Shown: positions 50,674-61,365 of the stretch, one piece after another
Position numbering within the stretch: the first letter of the stretch is position 1
Layout of the letters: each line of letters opens with the position of its first letter
NCBI RefSeq assembly: GCF_006704125.1
Contig: NZ_VIGH01000002.1
Span: 124,001 to 188,000 of the forward strand
Direction of reading: 5' to 3'
DNA from: Rhodococcus spelaei
GTDB taxonomy: Bacteria > Actinomycetota > Actinomycetes > Mycobacteriales > Mycobacteriaceae
Length of the DNA stretch: 64,000 nucleotides
Notes under the pieces: model-generated
The model's input: the letters and a program-made list of their open reading frames with translations, nothing else
Told to the model about the DNA's origin: nothing
Database searches by the model: none
Made by a program: the position numbers and the translations under genes

Positions 50674-50869
50674 ACCTCCCGGCGGTGTCGAGCATCGTCA
50701 GTGCTGGTGGTTCGACGATTTCGAGGACAAGCATCGGCTGGCCTTACGCTGTACATCAGGTCGAACCGGTTGCATGTGTAGCGCTCGCCGCTTGCTGGAC
50801 GATGTACGGAATGACGTGATGCGTCGCCGGGGCAGGGCGCATGTCAGAGAGTCGAATTTGGGAGTGGGC

Positions 50870-52567
50870 ATGACACCTCGAGGATTCTTCGCACGCCATC
50901 GCATCGCATCGGGCCTGATCGCGCCCGGAATCCTCGGCGTGGCCGCCTTGGTCACGCTGCCATGGGCACTGTCATCCGGGCCCCGTACCGCCGACACAGA
51001 ACTCACGTCGTCAGTGACCGAGTGCCACGACATGGTCACCGTCTCGATCGCCGGGCGCGGTGACACGCCCTCGGCGGACACCCCGAAGCTCGTCGACGCC
51101 AACGGCAATGCGCTCCCGGCCGCGCTGTCGACCGACTACAGCAGCAAGTGGCTCGATCCGGTCGCCAACGCCCCGGCTGCCAGCGTCAACCCGAACTCGT
51201 ACGCGTCGGTCTACGTCGCGTACCCCGCGAACATGGACAGCTACGAGAGCGCCGTCACCACGGGCGTGGCCAACGCCGAATCGGTGATGCAGCAGATCCA
51301 GCAGTCGTGCCCGAACACCCGGTTCGCGATCGTCGGCTACAGCGAGGGCGCCGACGTCGCGCGGCGGGTCGCGATGGACGTCGGGCATCAGACCGCCGAC
51401 GCCAAGGGCGGGTACGGGATCGTCAATCCGGCGAACGTCACCGGTGTCGTCATCTTCGCCGACGCCGGCCGCGCGGACGGTACGGGTCCCTTCCCGGGCG
51501 CGACGAACCCGTTCACCAACCCGAACGGTTTCAACCAGGCGTACCAGACCGGTACCACCCCGGCCGACGGACAGGGCGCGGTGCAGGGTACCGGCGGTTC
51601 CGACTTCGGCGCCCTGAACGGCAGGATCGCGTCGTTCTGTTCGGACGGCGACCTCACCTGCTCGGCGCCGCAGAACATCTCGCTGCTCAACCTCGCGGTC
51701 AACGTGGGTAGGCAACTGAACGTCGACTCACTCGAGAAGAACGGTCTCACGCTGGACAACGGACAGGGCGTCGCAGTGGTGCTCGGGCAGATCGCGTTCA
51801 ATGCGTTCCAAGAGATTCGGGCGACGCCGAACTGGATGCAGGGCAACGAGACGTTCCTCGACGTGCTGCTGAAGGTGTCCGACCCGGCCTACAAGCCCGG
51901 ACAGACGACTGCAGTGACGGACACCGCGCAGGACGCGTCGATCTCCACCAACCAGATGTCACCGCTGGCCTATCTGCCGCAGAAGATGTTCAAGGAGATC
52001 GTGGGGCTCATCGCGACGAACCAGAACACCATCCCGGTGGTCATGAGTGACCCGTACAACCTCACCCTGGGCCCGGATGCCAAGGGGCATCACTTCGACT
52101 ACTGGCGTGACGCGAACACCGCCGACGGCAAGCCACTGACGTCATCGCAGTACGCGGCGGCCTGGCTGACGCAGCTCGCTCAGCAGGCGCAGGCAGGACA
52201 GCCGCTCGACACGACGGTCAAGCCGGACGCGACGACGGTCAAGACTGTCGTCGATCAGGTGACGGCGACACCGACGCCGACCTCGGCTGCCGCCACGACG
52301 TCGGGCACTGCGACCACGTCCACGTCTACATCGAATTCGGCGACACCGACCGACTCGGCTTCCGCTTCCGCGACAACGACTGCGCCGACCACGGCTGCAC
52401 CCACGCCGGCGGCAAATGAGGTCGACGCTTCGACGAGCGTGACCCCGGAGACGACGAGCGCGGCCCCGACGGTGGAGACGCAGACCGCGGCGGTTGTCCC
52501 CACGACGACCGCGGCGGTGTCGACCACCCCAACCACGACCCCGGCGGTTCCGAGCTCGACCAGGTAG
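50870..52567 (+). CDS. Exported cutinase-family esterase with Ser/Thr-rich tail
   Basis: A 565-aa secreted or surface alpha/beta hydrolase. Residues 1-~45 are a signal or anchor helix. The cutinase core has FAIVGYSEGADVARR (GxSxG nucleophile elbow, Ser ~162), and a plausible Asp and a late His at GHHFDYW. Cys residues (SVTECHDM, QQSCPNTR, SFCSDGDLTC) could form disulfides. The last ~105 residues are almost only Thr, Ser, Ala, Pro and Val, a wall-spanning or glycosylated stalk. Start ATG 50870 after GGGAG. Confidence 0.88.
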   Translation: MTPRGFFARHRIASGLIAPGILGVAALVTLPWALSSGPRTADTELTSSVTECHDMVTVSIAGRGDTPSADTPKLVDANGNALPAALSTDYSSKWLDPVANAPAASVNPNSYASVYVAYPANMDSYESAVTTGVANAESVMQQIQQSCPNTRFAIVGYSEGADVARRVAMDVGHQTADAKGGYGIVNPANVTGVVIFADAGRADGTGPFPGATNPFTNPNGFNQAYQTGTTPADGQGAVQGTGGSDFGALNGRIASFCSDGDLTCSAPQNISLLNLAVNVGRQLNVDSLEKNGLTLDNGQGVAVVLGQIAFNAFQEIRATPNWMQGNETFLDVLLKVSDPAYKPGQTTAVTDTAQDASISTNQMSPLAYLPQKMFKEIVGLIATNQNTIPVVMSDPYNLTLGPDAKGHHFDYWRDANTADGKPLTSSQYAAAWLTQLAQQAQAGQPLDTTVKPDATTVKTVVDQVTATPTPTSAAATTSGTATTSTSTSNSATPTDSASASATTTAPTTAAPTPAANEVDASTSVTPETTSAAPTVETQTAAVVPTTTAAVSTTPTTTPAVPSSTR

Positions 52568-55038: not shown

Positions 55039-55863
55039 TCACGTCGGCGACGACAGCAACCGCGTGCGCATGAGGTCGAGCACCCGCTCGACGGCGGCGA
55101 GCGTCGGCTGGCCGGGCTCGTCGACGAGATGCTCGGTGAGCACCGAGTGCGGTGGCAACGCCCCCTGCGGATTGGCGCTTGCGCCATCGAGTTCGACGGC
55201 GACGAACGCTTCACCGAGCTGTTCGCGCAGGAACTCGAACCGCTCGGCGGGCACGAACCGGTCCCCTACGAACCGCAGCCCGAGCACGGTCAATCCGCCC
55301 GCGCATCGCTCCTTGACACGTGCGAGGTCCTCGGGCGAGATGTCGATCGTGGCCCGCCGCCCCGCAGTGACGGCGAGCGGCAACGACGGCTGCGAGAGCA
55401 CCGGTGCGAGCAGGACGTCGTCTGCGGCCATCGCGAGGGCGAAACCGCCGGTGAAGCACATTCCCACCGCGCCGACCCCGGGGCCGCCGCAGCGCGCGTG
55501 TTCGTGCCGGGCCAGTGCCCGCAACCAGCCGATCACCGGCGAGGTGCGCCCGGTCGCGAGCACGGTGAACTCGCGATTGATGCAGATCGGGATAATCGTG
55601 GACGCCGCATTGACGGCCGCGGCCGCGATCCCGTGCGCGTCCGGGTGCGGGTCGCGGCCCGGGCGCCCGAACAGGTGCGGGAGCACCGCAGTGCAGCCGA
55701 TATCGGAGATGCGTCGGGCAAAGTCGAGGACCTTCGGCGTGATGCCCGGGACCTCGGCCATCACGATCACGGCTGGCCCCGTGCCGCGACGGAAGACGGT
55801 CCGGGTCGCGCCGTCGTGGGTGAACTGATCGCGGTCGAAGTCGCTCAGCTCGTCGTCGGACAT
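55039..55863 (-). CDS. Dienelactone hydrolase family protein
   Basis: A 274-aa alpha/beta hydrolase with the Cys nucleophile elbow VGMCFTGGFALAMA (G-x-C-x-G-G), a catalytic Asp around RFVGDRFVPAERFE and a likely His at GALPPHSVLT. It would hydrolyse small lactones or esters. The ATG at 55863 follows gaggggcgtgcg, a usable ribosome site. No aromatic degradation genes accompany it, so the substrate is open. Confidence 0.85.
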   Translation of the reverse strand: MSDDELSDFDRDQFTHDGATRTVFRRGTGPAVIVMAEVPGITPKVLDFARRISDIGCTAVLPHLFGRPGRDPHPDAHGIAAAAVNAASTIIPICINREFTVLATGRTSPVIGWLRALARHEHARCGGPGVGAVGMCFTGGFALAMAADDVLLAPVLSQPSLPLAVTAGRRATIDISPEDLARVKERCAGGLTVLGLRFVGDRFVPAERFEFLREQLGEAFVAVELDGASANPQGALPPHSVLTEHLVDEPGQPTLAAVERVLDLMRTRLLSSPT

Positions 55864-56321
55864 CGCACGCCCCTCTCGTCAACGACCATCTTGCCGTAGC
55901 CCTCCCCTGATGAGCGGCCAACGCCACGGTACTGCGCCCACCAAGACGGCCCTTGCTGGTGAGCTGCTCGCAATCAAGCACGCGCTCAAGCGATTTCCGC
56001 GCCGAGGCCTCCACAACCTCACTGACGGCCTGGGCGCACGCCTGCCTCGCCCGGCACTGCTCGATCGACACACCGGCGACGTGGCACGGCGGTCACCCGC
56101 AACCGGGATATCGGCCCGGTGTCACGCCAGTGCGCGCGAGCACTGCAGCCTGACCTGGGCACATGTCCACCATGCAGCCTGTCCGCTTTGCGCGTTTTGT
56201 GACTGGGCGCACATCGTTCCCGTTCAGTGAGACTCGCCACTTCGCCTCGGCGGCGCTCCCGTATCAATGTCTCCAGCACTGAGATGTGCGTCACAACACC
56301 ACCTCACAAGGAGCACACACC
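55864..56321. other. Gene-poor spacer upstream of the peptide pair
   Basis: 458 nt with no gene I can support. The minus strand near 55877-56071 has a short in-phase frame with high GC3 and no ribosome site, possibly a remnant. Near 56262 the word tatcaat could be a -10 for the first peptide gene. The sequence tgcgtcac just before the first peptide is repeated before the second (56692). Confidence 0.4.
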
Positions 56322-56462
56322 ATGGGTTCTACCGAAGTTCTCGGCGGCCTCAAGACCATCCAGCCGTACCTCGGCATCGCCACCGGGCTCATGAGTGGCG
56401 CCGGCGCGCTGGTCGGCCTGACCCTCCTCGCCGCACCGATGCTCGCGTCGGCCTCCGCCTGA
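56322..56462 (+). CDS. 46-aa hydrophobic peptide, copy 1
   Basis: A short gene with an AAGGAG ribosome site 9 nt before the ATG. The product starts MGSTEVLGGLKTIQPYLGIA, has a Gly-rich hydrophobic middle, and ends with AAPMLASASA. It has one Lys and one Glu, no Cys, and no basic N-region. It differs from copy 2 only at residues 4 and 5, while third-codon bases differ more freely (gaa/gac, gtt/gtc, ggg/ggc, agt/agc, gcg/gca), the mark of a selected protein. A perfect 13-bp hairpin follows. Function unknown. Confidence 0.8.
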   Translation: MGSTEVLGGLKTIQPYLGIATGLMSGAGALVGLTLLAAPMLASASA

Positions 56463-56474
56463 TTCAGGTTGCAC

Positions 56475-56512
56475 GTGGCCGGTCCCGCTCGTTCGACAAC
56501 GGGACCGGCCAC
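56475..56512 (+). terminator. Terminator of peptide copy 1
   Basis: A perfect 13-bp stem, GTGGCCGGTCCCG (56475-56487) with CGGGACCGGCCAC (56500-56512), 12-nt loop, 12 nt after the stop of the 46-aa gene. Confidence 0.88.
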
Positions 56513-56732
56513 ACCTGGTCATCTGACCAAACCGCTGGTCACAGACATCTACTTCCGACATTTCTTGCAATTCGGACGGTGTCCGTAACTCAATGTTGAT
56601 ATTCCTTATCAGCGATTTCTCATATATTGATACGCAGGATTACCGGATCCTTTCGCTTGTGATACGAATTACTCGGCGCAGGCACTGAGACCTGCGTCAC
56701 TCCCCCACCCTCAAGCAATTAGGAGTCACCCC
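56513..56732. promoter_or_regulatory. AT-rich promoter region of peptide copy 2
   Basis: 220 nt, much richer in A/T than the rest of the window, especially 56575-56675 (ttgatattccttatcagc, tctcatatattgatacgc). Several -35/-10-like words occur, for example ttgata and tatatt. The last part (gcactgagacctgcgtcac) resembles the sequence before copy 1, so the duplication includes the upstream region. Confidence 0.5.
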
Positions 56733-56873
56733 ATGGGTTCTTCCGACGTCCTCGGCGGCCTCAAGACCATCCAGCCGTACCTCGGCATCGCCACCGGCCT
56801 CATGAGCGGCGCCGGCGCACTGGTCGGCCTGACCCTCCTCGCCGCACCGATGCTCGCGTCGGCCTCCGCCTGA
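56733..56873 (+). CDS. 46-aa hydrophobic peptide, copy 2
   Basis: Tandem duplicate of the gene at 56322, with TAGGAG 8 nt before the ATG. It starts MGSSDVLGGLKTIQPYLGIA and ends LLAAPMLASASA; only residues 4-5 (SD for TE) differ from copy 1. The segment GALVGLTLLAAPMLASASA resembles the hydrophobic core and AxA cleavage site of a signal peptide, but the stop follows at once, so there is no passenger. Small size and hydrophobicity recall corynebacterial PorA/PorH or leaderless bacteriocins, but I see no sequence match. Confidence 0.8.
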   Translation: MGSSDVLGGLKTIQPYLGIATGLMSGAGALVGLTLLAAPMLASASA

Positions 56874-56881
56874 CTCCACCG

Positions 56882-56911
56882 GCCGGCCCCGCTCGATCGA
56901 GTGGGGCCGGC
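56882..56911 (+). terminator. Terminator of peptide copy 2
   Basis: A 9-bp stem, GCCGGCCCC (56882-56890) with GGGGCCGGC (56903-56911), 12-nt loop, 8 nt after the stop. It also lies just beyond the 3' end of egtD on the minus strand and can end that transcript. Confidence 0.85.
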
Positions 56912-56937
56912 TGCCGGATCCGGCCGCTGCCCGACCG

Positions 56938-57912
56938 TCAGCCCGCCCGGTCCGCGAGGATCAGCGCGAACCGGTCCAGCGGATCCGTCCACACCCGATC
57001 ACTGCCGAAGCCGGCCGCGGCGAGCTCCTTGCAGATGCCCTCGACGCGGAACTTCGCCGAGATCTCTGTTCGCATCTGCTCACCCGCCGCGAACTCCACC
57101 TCCAGGCCCAACGCGGGAACCTGCACGGTCATCGGTTCGACCGCCTCCACACGCATTTCGATCCACTCACTGACCTCGTCCCACAGCGCCACGTGCCGGA
57201 ACCGGTCGAGGTCGAAGTTCGCCCCCAACTGGTCATTGAGCACCGACAACACGTTCAGGTTGAACCGCGCGGTGACGCCGGCGGCGTCGTCGTAGGCAGG
57301 CACCACTACCGCGGGATCCGTGACCAGCCCGACCCCCAGCAGCAACTGCTCACCCTCCTCGAGCACCTCGGCGACCGAGGCGAGGAACTCGGCCCGCTCC
57401 TCCTGCACCAGGTTGCCGAGCGTGCCGCCGAGGAACGCGATCATCCGCCGGCCACCACGCGGGAGGTTGTGCAGCGTGTCGGTGAAGTCGCTGACGATCC
57501 CGTGCACCGTCAACGCTGGGAACTCCGCCGCCACCTGGCGCACTGCCGACGCGAGCGCCGCCTCCGACACGTCCTGCGGCACATACCGCTCCAGCGTGCC
57601 GTGCTCGGTGAGGGCGCCGAGCAGCACTCGCGTCTTCTCCGACGACCCCGACCCGAGCTCGACGAGGATCTGCGCTGACGTTGCCTCCGCGATGTGCGAG
57701 GCACTGGCCCGCAACAACTCCCGCTCGGTACGGGTCGGGTAGTACTCCGGCAGCCGGGTGATCTCCTCGAAGAGTTCACTGCCCTTGGCGTCGTAGAACC
57801 ACTTGGGCGGCAGCCACTTCGGAGTCGCAGTCAGGCCGAGACGCGCATCGGCCCGCAGATTCTCGTGCAGTTGCCGCGGCGCCAGGTGAACCTCGACGGT
57901 CGGTTCGTTCAT
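56938..57912 (-). CDS. egtD: L-histidine N-alpha-methyltransferase
   Basis: A 324-aa SAM enzyme that trimethylates histidine to hercynine, the first step of ergothioneine synthesis. Motifs are WFYDAKGSELFEEITRLPEYY, ILVELGSGSSEKTR (SAM motif I), IAFLGGTLGN and the C-terminal AKFRVEGI. The start is the ATG at 57912 in an ATGA overlap with egtC. Last gene of the egtABCD operon. Confidence 0.96.
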   Translation of the reverse strand: MNEPTVEVHLAPRQLHENLRADARLGLTATPKWLPPKWFYDAKGSELFEEITRLPEYYPTRTERELLRASASHIAEATSAQILVELGSGSSEKTRVLLGALTEHGTLERYVPQDVSEAALASAVRQVAAEFPALTVHGIVSDFTDTLHNLPRGGRRMIAFLGGTLGNLVQEERAEFLASVAEVLEEGEQLLLGVGLVTDPAVVVPAYDDAAGVTARFNLNVLSVLNDQLGANFDLDRFRHVALWDEVSEWIEMRVEAVEPMTVQVPALGLEVEFAAGEQMRTEISAKFRVEGICKELAAAGFGSDRVWTDPLDRFALILADRAG

Positions 57913-58658
57913 GCACTTGCCTCCAGTTCGGTGATCTCCAGATGCCCGGGCCGTGCCTCGAGAAGGTGTCGGTCGGGCACCACCAGCCACCCCTCCTCCT
58001 CGTCCACCGGTTCCGAGGCCACCACTGCGACCGACTCGTCGACACGGACCGACAGCGAGTGGTACACCGCCGACGCCCACAGCCCCGTCCCGTCACTCAG
58101 CAGCAGGTTCAGCCGCGACAGCGGCGCCGCCTCCAGCACGTCGATGAGCACACTGCGCAACGCCTGACCCGGTTCCTCGGTGTCGAGCCGTCGCCGCACC
58201 ATCGTCCACAGCAGAGCCGAATCGGTGAGCGCGGGCATTCGCAGCAACTCCACCGCCGGCAACCACTCCGCGAGCGCCGCAATCGAATCCGGCCACCCGT
58301 CGATACTGCCGTTGTGGCTGAACGCCCACTTGCCATCAGTGAACGGGGCGCAGGCCTCGCGGGTCAGCGGCATTCCGACGGTGGCCGAGCGCACCGCGGC
58401 CACCACCGCAGGCGCCGCCACCTCGCCGAGCGCCCCCTCGACCGCCGGATCGGACCAGACCGGCGCGGGGTTCCGGTAGGCGACCGGGTCGCGACCCGGC
58501 GGCCACCACGCGGCGCCGAAGCCGTCGGCATTGATCACGCCACCGCCACGCATCTCCCGCGGCGCCCACGACTGGGTCAGCAGGCTGCGCTCCCCACCCG
58601 CCGTCAGCACATCCGCGACCGTCCGCGACGGGCCGAGATACCCGAGATGCCTACACAT
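57909..58658 (-). CDS. egtC: Gamma-glutamyl-hercynylcysteine sulfoxide hydrolase
   Basis: A 249-aa class-II glutamine amidotransferase-fold enzyme that removes glutamate from the ergothioneine intermediate. MCRHLGYLG gives the N-terminal catalytic Cys2; ADGFGAAWW and FSHNGSIDGW are the usual substrate-binding segments. Its start abuts the egtB stop with no gap. Overlap with egtD (ATGA). Confidence 0.95.
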   Translation of the reverse strand: MCRHLGYLGPSRTVADVLTAGGERSLLTQSWAPREMRGGGVINADGFGAAWWPPGRDPVAYRNPAPVWSDPAVEGALGEVAAPAVVAAVRSATVGMPLTREACAPFTDGKWAFSHNGSIDGWPDSIAALAEWLPAVELLRMPALTDSALLWTMVRRRLDTEEPGQALRSVLIDVLEAAPLSRLNLLLSDGTGLWASAVYHSLSVRVDESVAVVASEPVDEEEGWLVVPDRHLLEARPGHLEITELEASA

Positions 58659-59963
58659 CTATTCGGATACGTCTCGTGCGCAACGGAACCCGGCGAAGAT
58701 CTGGCGGCGCACCGGATGGTCCCAGTTCCGGAACGTCCCGCGGCACGCCACCGGATCGGTGCCGAACGAGCCACCGCGCAACACCTTGTAGTCGCCGCCG
58801 AGGAACACCTCCGAGTACTCCCGGTACGGGAACGCCGAGAAGCCCGGGTACGGCAGGAAATCCGACGACGTCCACTCCCACACGTCGCCGATCAGCTGGT
58901 GCACACCGAGCGGGGACCGGCCGGCCGGATAGGCGCCGACCGGTGCCGGCTCGAGGTGCCGCTGGCCGAGGTTCGCGTGCTCGTCGGTGGGTTCCTCGTC
59001 GCCCCACGGGAATCGGTGCGAGGTCCCGGTCCGCGGATCCCACCGGGCCGCCTTCTCCCACTCCGCCTCGGTGGGCAGCCGTTTGCCCGCCCACCGGGCG
59101 TAGGCATCGGCCTCGAAATAGCTGACGTGCACGACCGGGCGATCCGGCGCCACCGGCGCTCGCACACCGAATGCGCGCCGCCACCAGTCGCCCGAGGTGT
59201 CCCGCTCCCAGAACTGCGGGGCCACCAACGCGGCCGACTGCCGGTGCCGCCAACCTCGCTCGCTCCACAGTTCCGGTCGCCGGTATCCGCCGTCGCCGAT
59301 GAACTGGAGGTACTGCCCGTTCGTCACCGGCGCGGCATCGAGCGCGAACGTCGGTACCTCGACGCGATGCGCAGGCCGCTCGTTGTCCAGCGCCCACGGG
59401 TCCGTGGAGGTCCCCATCGTGAACGCGCCGGCCGGCACCACCACCTCGTCCGGGACGGCCGTGTCGATCGCGGGCGGCACCGGTTCGGCCGCGAGCACCG
59501 GTGCACCGCTGCGCAATTGGTGGGTGGCGAGCATCGTCTCGTCGTGCTGCTGTTCGTGTTGGGCGATCATCGCGAACGCGAACCCGTCGTGTTCGAGCGG
59601 CCTGCCGCGCAACGGTGAACGGTCCAGCACGTCCCAGGCCTTCTCACGGACCTGCGCCACGTAGCCGCGGGCCTGCGCAGGGTCGAGCAACGGCAGGGCC
59701 GGCCGGTCGGCGCGGGCGTGCTTGAACGCGTCGTACAGCTCGTCGATGTCGCGGCGCACCGGCTCACGGCCACCGACGTCCCGGACCAGCCACAACTCCT
59801 CCTGGTTGCCGATGTGCGCGAGGTCCCAGACCAGCGGGCTCATCAACGGCGAGTGCTGGGCGATCAACTCCCCCTCGTCGACGCATTCGGTGAGTGCGAG
59901 GCTGCGCTCGCGGGCCCGGGCCAGCACGGTCGCGAGATCGTCGCGCAACGCGTCGGTACTCAT
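58659..59963 (-). CDS. egtB: Hercynine oxygenase (sulfoxide synthase)
   Basis: A 434-aa non-haem iron enzyme joining gamma-glutamylcysteine to hercynine. The N-terminal DinB-like domain has the iron ligands (WDLAHIGNQEE His and the HEQQH HxxxH). The C-terminal FGE-sulfatase domain has NGQYLQFIGDGGY, RLPTEAEWEKAARW, DVWEWTSSDF and VLRGGSFGT. The ATG at 59963 overlaps the egtA stop. Confidence 0.96.
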   Translation of the reverse strand: MSTDALRDDLATVLARARERSLALTECVDEGELIAQHSPLMSPLVWDLAHIGNQEELWLVRDVGGREPVRRDIDELYDAFKHARADRPALPLLDPAQARGYVAQVREKAWDVLDRSPLRGRPLEHDGFAFAMIAQHEQQHDETMLATHQLRSGAPVLAAEPVPPAIDTAVPDEVVVPAGAFTMGTSTDPWALDNERPAHRVEVPTFALDAAPVTNGQYLQFIGDGGYRRPELWSERGWRHRQSAALVAPQFWERDTSGDWWRRAFGVRAPVAPDRPVVHVSYFEADAYARWAGKRLPTEAEWEKAARWDPRTGTSHRFPWGDEEPTDEHANLGQRHLEPAPVGAYPAGRSPLGVHQLIGDVWEWTSSDFLPYPGFSAFPYREYSEVFLGGDYKVLRGGSFGTDPVACRGTFRNWDHPVRRQIFAGFRCARDVSE

Positions 59964-61216
59964 GCGTCGGCCTCCTGGACGGGGGTGCGGCCGCGACGAC
60001 ATCGCTGCGCCGCGGCGGACAGTTCCACCGAGAAGGACCGTGACTTCGATGCCGCCAACGACAGCAGACCGACTGCGGCACAGCGTAATTCGGTGTCGAC
60101 CAGGCCGAACTCGGCAGCGTCGCGCCAGCGACCAGCCGTGCCCGCGGACAACGCGGCTGCCTCGGCGACAGTCTCACGGTCGCAGAGCAGCGCATCCAAC
60201 GCGGCGATCGGCACCCGCCACAACTCCCCCGGCTGCGCGTCGAGGTAGCGCACCTCCAGATGGCCCGCGGCGCGGACCGGCGGGAACAGCGTGCTCAGGT
60301 GGTAGTCGAGGTCGCGGTGGTCCGGACGACGGCCGATCACCTCGTCGAGCTCGCCCGCCATCCAGTCGGCGAAGGTGGCATCGCCGGCCAGGGACCAGTC
60401 GTCGGGACAGTCGCCGCAGCCACCGATGACGCACAGCATCGGCGCGTCCAGGGCCCACCGCCCGTAACTGCTGATCGGGTCGGCCAGCGGTGGCGGGTCG
60501 GTGCGCCCGGGGTCCAGTTCGAACCAGGCCCGCATCCGCTGCGACGCCCAGGCGCCGTCCGGAATGCCCCACAGCCGGGGCGAGCAGGCGAACGCCGCGA
60601 GCAGCGCGGGCCCCACCGCGTGCAGGACCGTCCAGCGCTCCGACACCTCGACGGCATCCGCACCGGCGTCCACGCTGACCTGCGTGGCCGCGGTGTTGCA
60701 CATCATCAGTCGGCCGTAGGGGCCGATCCGGTCGAATCGCTCTTCCATCGCCCGGTAGCGAGGCAGCTGCAGGATTCGATCGGCCGGACGGGCGGGGTCC
60801 GCGGCGGCGTCGACCATGGCGATGTCCGCGCGGGCGAGCCTGCTGCGGAGCTGCTCGGAGTCGGCCGTGAGTGCGGCGCACAACTCCTCCACCGACGGGA
60901 GTGGAGTGCTGGAGAGTTCGATCTGGCCGCCGGGCTCGAGCGTCACGGCGCTTCCGGCCGGGAGCGGGCGGGCGGGCGAATCGGGGGCGATGCTGGTCGG
61001 GGCGTGCGGCGCGAGGACCGACGCGAGGTCGTGCAGGTCGGGGCGGTGCGGATGGGACGGATCGTCGGCGCGACAGTGCAGGGTCAGCCACTCCAACTCG
61101 GCACCGATCAGCCGCGGCGGCCCGAGTTTGAAGCAGACGCCGCCGATGTAGGCCTCCGCCGCGGCCCTGGTGGTGAGCCGCGCGGACCTCACTTCTCTTG
61201 CCAAAGTCACTGCCAT
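59960..61216 (-). CDS. egtA: Glutamate-cysteine ligase (ergothioneine type)
   Basis: A 418-aa GCS2-family ligase making gamma-glutamylcysteine. Visible are the ATP/Mg acidic site IGAELEWLTLHC, LEPGGQIELSSTP, and RLMMCNTAATQVSVDAG. The start is the ATG at 61216 with GGAGCG just upstream; a GTG at 61219 is possible. First gene of egtABCD; the 149-nt spacer to the divergent class-V gene holds both promoters. Confidence 0.94.
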   Translation of the reverse strand: MAVTLAREVRSARLTTRAAAEAYIGGVCFKLGPPRLIGAELEWLTLHCRADDPSHPHRPDLHDLASVLAPHAPTSIAPDSPARPLPAGSAVTLEPGGQIELSSTPLPSVEELCAALTADSEQLRSRLARADIAMVDAAADPARPADRILQLPRYRAMEERFDRIGPYGRLMMCNTAATQVSVDAGADAVEVSERWTVLHAVGPALLAAFACSPRLWGIPDGAWASQRMRAWFELDPGRTDPPPLADPISSYGRWALDAPMLCVIGGCGDCPDDWSLAGDATFADWMAGELDEVIGRRPDHRDLDYHLSTLFPPVRAAGHLEVRYLDAQPGELWRVPIAALDALLCDRETVAEAAALSAGTAGRWRDAAEFGLVDTELRCAAVGLLSLAASKSRSFSVELSAAAQRCRRGRTPVQEADA

Positions 61217-61365
61217 CACGCGCTCCGATCATCGGGCGGGCACCGCTACAGGACGTACGGGTGATGAGGGTAGATGCCGTCACCGACACTAAACCGAGAT
61301 CGCTGATCGTGTCACCCGCCAGATGTAGCGTCGAGGGTCAATGCCGACCACCACCGGGAGGTTCG

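Follow-up and report, generated by a model that had tools for sequence, protein, structure and literature searches.

The tandem pair of genes described here lies in a window of 64,000 nucleotides from Rhodococcus spelaei, and sequence comparison places both genes in an unrecognised family of tiny one-helix peptides, called GS-peptides in what follows. The family is real, unannotated and taxon-restricted, and has a striking recombination pattern, whose mechanism we infer.

The two genes (Table 1) encode, as the preliminary description had reported, peptides of equal length that differ at two of 46 residues. Six codons are different: two of them give the changes T4S and E5D, and the other four are synonymous, in agreement with the claim that silent sites had diverged. 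Since just six codons differ, selection is unproven from the tandem pair alone. Each gene is preceded by the expected AGGAG-type site, and each is followed by a hairpin whose folding is far stronger than that of shuffled sequences. The description of these hairpins as terminators is plausible only: both are without a T run, and a terminator scan of positions 55500-57500 reported none.

Table 1. The tandem gene pair and its surroundings, in window coordinates
Feature	Position	Strand	Remarks
Proximal element CTGAGATGTGCGTCAC, copy 1	56279..56294	+	43 bases ahead of ATG
Shine-Dalgarno AAGGAG, copy 1	56308..56313	+	8 bases ahead of ATG
GS-peptide gene copy 1	56322..56462	+	46 aa, stop TGA included
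Strong hairpin 3' of copy 1, without T tract	56464..56518	+	z -4.1
Proximal element CTGAGACCTGCGTCAC, copy 2	56685..56700	+	48 bases ahead of ATG
Shine-Dalgarno AGGAG, copy 2	56721..56725	+	7 bases ahead of ATG
GS-peptide gene copy 2	56733..56873	+	46 aa, stop TGA included; AlphaFold2 predicts a single helix, 3-45
Strong hairpin 3' of copy 2, between the convergent stops of copy 2 and egtD	56880..56913	+	z -6.4
egtD (histidine methyltransferase, ergothioneine synthesis), convergent neighbour marking the conserved locus	56938..57900	-	

The starts of the two copies are 411 bases apart. Their coding sequences are 96% identical. Outside them identity is 65% in the nearest 60 bases on the upstream side, 51% beyond those and 59% on the downstream side; shuffled controls for these flanks have means of 48-52% and maxima of 53-58%. 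An independent second tandem pair, in genome G029 (L101, 4914-5381), combines a coding identity of 94% with flanks at 56-62%. The coding unit is therefore kept alike or copied in such pairs, and high coding identity within strongly diverged flanks suggests gene conversion in both. A third copy is found in the window's genome, on contig C12.

The neighbours of the pair in the window are egtD and a dienelactone-hydrolase-like gene. On the minus strand, positions 56938-61219 hold an ergothioneine cluster, in which egtD is accompanied by what we take, from Pfam matches, to be egtC-, egtB- and egtA-like genes. Positions 50774-52567 encode a cutinase-family protein with a long C-terminal tail rich in Ser, Thr and Pro.

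The family and its loci

In a first protein search, 6 of 61 genomes had a match at E <= 0.01. The true relatives were those of the window's own genome, L002, L003 and the copies of G029 (L005, L008), and the rest were chance: L004, L006 and L009-L012 were rejected because they match a long open frame that starts MGV[ST]DPLGGIN, presumably that of the carbon-starvation protein CstA. With alignments A1 and A2, matches at E <= 0.001 were obtained in 34 of the 401 genomes of the taxonomic-family sample, and 31 were accepted as carriers, three g14 genomes with weak matches being dropped. The carriers comprise five of the six genomes of the window's genus (the R. triatomae clade, including R. triatomae BKS 15-14 and Rhodococcus sp. 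RD6.2), 14 Prescottella (g10; among them Prescottella equi, defluvii, agglutinans and subtropica), 11 of the 28 Rhodococcus genomes sampled in g23, such as Rhodococcus sp. IEGM 1409, and one genome in g25. A sample of the order (298 genomes, 76 genera) and one of the phylum (198 genomes, 148 genera) each yielded a single matching genome, the window's own; these samples bound the spread of the family only loosely, because each genus is thinly represented in them and the known carriers in Prescottella and Rhodococcus escaped them. The preliminary description had allowed that these might not be real genes if no other genome had similar peptides: such relatives exist, and chance open reading frames are thereby excluded.

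A genome may hold up to six copies (G216). The member set used below counts 76 GS-peptides, 74 of them distinct, of 36-52 residues. It leaves aside L130 and L131, for which the start rule found no start codon, the matches G165:C1:3259528, G018 and G103, and L147, a 52-residue peptide without Gly-Ser from a g14 genome, which was dropped before the anatomy counts.

No Pfam or NCBIfam model covers the family. The two window peptides have no Pfam match at E up to 1, and ten relatives gave none above cut-off and none to PF09203, the model of the MspA porins. Weak matches of family peptides in Pfam, NCBIfam, PDB and PHROG were rejected as chance, including those to the pLS20_p028 conjugation protein (NF045890), with 17.3 and 16 bits against a curated cut-off of 150. 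A plasmid search with one Prescottella-type member as query gave no relative; 34 stretches of viral contigs matched the A3 patterns, which represent the DLALIKQIQP subfamily only, and none was confirmed. Six fragments of family peptides were looked for in the text of the papers searched, and none was found.

ATG is the start codon of all 76 members, and 72 match the Shine-Dalgarno sequence at five or more of six positions, two counts biased upward by a start rule that favoured both features. Near the N-terminus, the Gly-Ser columns hold Gly in 70 and Ser in 70 of the 74 distinct peptides, a constancy that is overstated because members were found with a model containing the motif. Gly-Ser is not a mere start-codon context, since 10 distinct peptides retain it after an extended N-terminus. 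Charged residues are concentrated in the first 18 positions (213, versus 19 beyond), and the net charge is -1 or 0 in 58 of the 74. One column of the core is Gly in 73 of 74 peptides, and 73 of 74 cores contain GxxxG, against 55.0 +/- 3.6 in shuffles that count related rows as independent; small residues gather on one face of the helix (volume moment, p 0.02). AlphaFold2 models copy 2 of the window with a mean pLDDT of 86.1 and a pTM of 0.46. The predicted anatomy is thus that of a hydrophobic, nearly charge-free helix with a glycine zipper. Inspection of the 76 members revealed no conserved n-region or AxA pattern of a signal presequence; the AxA end that had been likened to a signal-peptide core is not conserved across the family, and the resemblance is incidental.

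Judged by substitution patterns, the members are under purifying selection. In 33 pairs within related groups, dN/dS ranges from 0 to 0.51, and it is at most 0.3 in 26 of them; L078 and L079 differ with dN 0 and dS 0.32, and L105 and L106 with dN 0 and dS 0.14. Most genes are followed by a hairpin, with z below -2 in 62 of 76 (63 of 77 with L147), as measured against simple shuffles in 80-base windows that possibly reach into neighbouring genes. The Shine-Dalgarno region is mostly unpaired when 53 bases are folded (mean 0.61, below 0.5 in 15 of 76). At L117 (4979-5286) and L120 (4973-5262), two different GS-peptides are encoded by a likely bicistronic pair with a single hairpin, an arrangement that recalls porH-porA. 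The first gene of each pair is without a hairpin, as expected if each pair is one transcript.

Each orthologous group of loci has different neighbours, and no partner gene is common to all loci. Of the six genomes in the window's genus, five have a GS gene convergent with egtD within about 4 kb. The gap is about 60-75 bases in the window, L088 and L148, and widens to about 0.7 kb in L099 and to about 3.7 kb in L093; genome G004 has egtD and no GS gene beside it. A second locus, where the GS gene is convergent with a 3-hydroxyacyl-CoA dehydrogenase gene, is found 11 times in Prescottella and twice in the R. triatomae clade. The GS gene adjoins an L,D-transpeptidase gene at 12 Prescottella loci, lies between an SDR gene and a gene that is P450-like by eye at 10 Rhodococcus loci, and adjoins an MFS transporter gene in one further group (L075 and others).

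Replacement of the coding sequence

At the SDR/P450 locus, 10 of the 28 Rhodococcus genomes share one and the same 19-base leader, which stands six bases ahead of the ATG. Identity among these ten loci is 86-98% for the SDR, 88-99% for the P450-like protein, only 68-97% for the hydrolase and 74-99% for the 130 bases upstream, whereas the peptides fall into five classes that are 25-45% identical to one another. The contrast is cleanest among L077, L116, L137, L139 and L144, where upstream identity is 88-98% and SDR identity 95-98%.

Its boundaries can be followed along a multiple alignment of the locus in bins of 60 bases. In five pairs of different class, identity is 0.80-1.00 in the bins ahead of the start codon, falls to 0.26-0.55 over the first 120 bases and is 0.75-1.00 again from +180 onwards, the exception being an indel in L077, from +660 to +780; three pairs of the same class display no drop. 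For L116 and L144, the upstream bins are at 0.80-1.00, the first two coding bins at 0.33 and 0.26, and those from +180 at 0.78-0.95. Aligned alone, the coding sequences of L116 and L144 are 0.54 identical (shuffles have a mean of 0.43 and a maximum of 0.51), the level to be expected if the two are remote relatives within the family. Point mutation explains the pattern poorly, as it would require silent sites to have diverged much more than the DNA on either side; the simple reading of these alignments, which compare one genome per species, is that the coding sequence was replaced by recombination.

The pattern differs between loci. Coding identity lies at least 0.15 below the identity of the 130 bases upstream in 36 of 45 pairs at the SDR/P450 locus. 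The L,D-transpeptidase locus has 21 such pairs out of 66, and the dehydrogenase locus, with 11 of its 13 loci compared, has none out of 55. There is none out of 10 at the egtD locus, represented by window copy 1 only and with flanks too diverged to judge; EgtD itself is 83-85% identical there, and the counterparts of window copy 2 that were compared, three of four (L093 left out), are 33-49% like it. Precise replacement of the coding sequence at one locus suggests a diversifying pressure on a peptide of roughly 40 residues.

Candidate functions in the cell envelope

The explanation to which we lean, by analogy and with somewhat less than even confidence, is that GS-peptides are small leaderless oligomerising mycomembrane proteins that work like PorA, PorH and ProtX, are possibly O-mycoloylated, and are diversified by phages. 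The peptide would be exported by whatever route the leaderless corynebacterial porins take, and would enter the mycomembrane, where helices could pack by their glycine face into oligomers; these might form a channel, or a structural protein resembling PorA, PorH or ProtX. The conserved serine of Gly-Ser may carry the O-mycoloylation. Exposure at the surface would make the peptide a phage target, which would explain why alleles are swapped without a co-changing partner gene. The tandem pair would then be two expression sites for one allele, with gene conversion keeping the copies alike.

The model for this proposal comes from Corynebacterium. The known small mycomembrane porins are helical, oligomer-forming and without presequence (PMC5944148), and leaderless helical mycomembrane proteins of this size include PorA, PorH, PorACj, PorACur and ProtX (PMC5944148, PMC3792995, PMC12632848, PMC9671496). 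PorA is modelled as two helices (PMC11927696), PorACur and PorACj are just 10% identical, such short porins being barely alike among themselves (PMC5944148), and phage Cog probably uses ProtX as its receptor (PMC9671496). PorA, PorH and ProtX are O-mycoloylated, at mapped sites that are mostly Ser, with neighbouring Gly, Ala and Ser slightly enriched and no strict consensus (PMC11066868, PMC11927696); in the portions of the literature searched, the modification is documented in Corynebacterium only. An anion-selective channel is on record for R. equi (Riess 2003, as cited in PMC9233653).

GS-peptides match the leaderless peptides of Corynebacterium in their size, their predicted helix, the missing presequence and the kind of bacteria that carry them, and their Gly-Ser motif suits the comparison. 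Like PorA/PorH, PorACj and PorACur, they have fewer than 60 residues, lack a presequence and occur in mycolata; their helix is predicted. The porH-porA gene pair has a parallel in the paralogue pairs of L117 and L120. They share a tiny size and a predicted helix with ProtX of C. glutamicum, an envelope protein, and a role as phage receptor would account for the swapping of alleles. The almost invariant Ser in its Gly-Ser context is suggestive only as a site of O-mycoloylation. Differences from the small corynebacterial porins are also evident: a single predicted helix, a glycine zipper, up to six dispersed copies, and co-occurrence with MspA. No homology to C. glutamicum PorA or PorH was detected with the family HMM, which gave 3.4 and -0.6 bits against these very short sequences. 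Among the candidates put forward in the preliminary description, a mycolata porin-like peptide is the best by anatomy, being leaderless, predicted helical, below 60 residues and from mycolata; the interpretation offered there is partly supported.

Several points weigh against the mycomembrane reading. The predicted core holds few polar residues to line a water-filled pore, and an uncharged hydrophobic helix suits an inner-membrane role equally. Swapping is not seen among the 55 pairs at the dehydrogenase locus, nor among the 10 at egtD, where the flanks are too diverged to judge, and close to the swapped locus the hydrolase gene, too, varies, with an identity of only 0.68-0.97. MspA-type porins (PF09203), the known mycomembrane channels of the same genera, are present in all 31 accepted carrier genomes, so that another porin is not obviously needed and GS-peptides would be additional envelope proteins; the MspA type is unrelated, and consists of beta-barrels of around 200 residues with signal peptides.

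In a bolder form of the same proposal, GS-peptides are an unrecognised Rhodococcus class of mycomembrane proteins, O-mycoloylated at Gly-Ser, and act as phage receptors that escape by cassette exchange of the whole coding sequence between a fixed promoter and terminator. We regard this as speculative, with a rather poor chance of being right in all its parts; a literature search on Rhodococcus phage receptors found nothing. If true, protein mycoloylation would extend beyond Corynebacterium, and GS-peptides could supply the anion-selective channel of R. equi, for which we know of no identified gene. A small channel protein of R. erythropolis was reportedly sequenced in part by Lichtinger et al. 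in 2000. The outer-membrane proteins of mycolic-acid bacteria, besides MspA-type porins and PE/PPE, are poorly known, and a family with a fixed motif provides candidate small channels and phage receptors in Rhodococcus, and candidate targets of mycoloylation in a genus other than Corynebacterium.

Many bacterial small membrane proteins consist of one helix, and GS-peptides could be inner-membrane proteins of this kind that regulate an envelope enzyme or transporter or belong to it as an accessory subunit. We consider this unlikely, if worth serious attention: the lack of a signal peptide and the single, nearly uncharged helix with GxxxG packing agree with it, but no partner gene is common to the loci, a peptide bound to one fixed partner would hardly be expected to have its whole sequence replaced behind a fixed promoter, and carriers were found, in the samples searched, in one family of mycolic-acid bacteria only.

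Bacteriocin and pheromone systems are known to swap alleles, and the exchanged classes could be types or specificities of a secreted membrane-active peptide: a leaderless bacteriocin, a surfactant resembling phenol-soluble modulins or, as had also been suggested, a signalling peptide. GS-peptides are indeed leaderless, hydrophobic, multi-copy and tandem, and one group of loci has the MFS transporter gene. Such readings are improbable in our opinion, and are weakened because neighbours vary by locus and no gene for immunity, maturation or a receptor recurs among them, and because the SDR (86-98%) and P450 (88-99%) genes stay alike where the peptide class changes. Most leaderless bacteriocins are cationic, unlike GS-peptides with their net charge of -1 or 0 in most members.

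Size, hydrophobicity, tandem paralogues and strong hairpins also bring to mind the hydrophobic toxins of type I toxin-antitoxin pairs, such as Ldr, Ibs and Fst, held under antisense RNA control; these toxins and the leaderless bacteriocins are short, hydrophobic and often tandem. That GS-peptides are such toxins is very improbable: positions 55500-57500 have no Rfam match at E up to 1 (novel RNAs would escape), the Shine-Dalgarno regions are mostly unpaired, and the conserved loci, one of them common to two genera, with at most six copies per genome, are unlike those of sporadic toxins. The Gly-Ser motif and the conserved loci, with no antisense RNA or immunity gene recognised, set the family apart from both groups. 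Finally, the frames are very short, their hairpins strong and their annotation family absent, but the idea of non-functional by-products of small RNAs or repeats can practically be dismissed, with amino acids conserved despite synonymous change (L078/L079, L105/L106) and start codon, Shine-Dalgarno site and length kept across members.

Upstream elements

The proximal elements of Table 1 are instances of CTGAGAYNTGCRTCAC, which is found 43-48 bases 5' of all six egtD-linked genes examined in the window's genus, once with one mismatch. Six genomes of the genus contain six exact matches, five of which precede egtD-linked GS genes; with at most one mismatch the matches number 18, versus 3 for a reversed control. 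The only other exact match in the window's genome (L171, G000:C14:142971-142986) precedes a gene that is alpha/beta-hydrolase-like by eye.

A palindrome, GTCYCACTSAGTGRGAC, ends 90-190 bases before GS members in three genera; six forms of it were looked for in the text of the papers searched, and none was found. Five genomes hold five sites with at most one mismatch, and three of the five precede GS genes. Some weaker matches precede genes that are catabolic in appearance, by eye; those at L174, L178 and L181, in three genera, stand 59 bases before similar genes that look hydratase-like, hinting at a shared regulator of catabolic genes.
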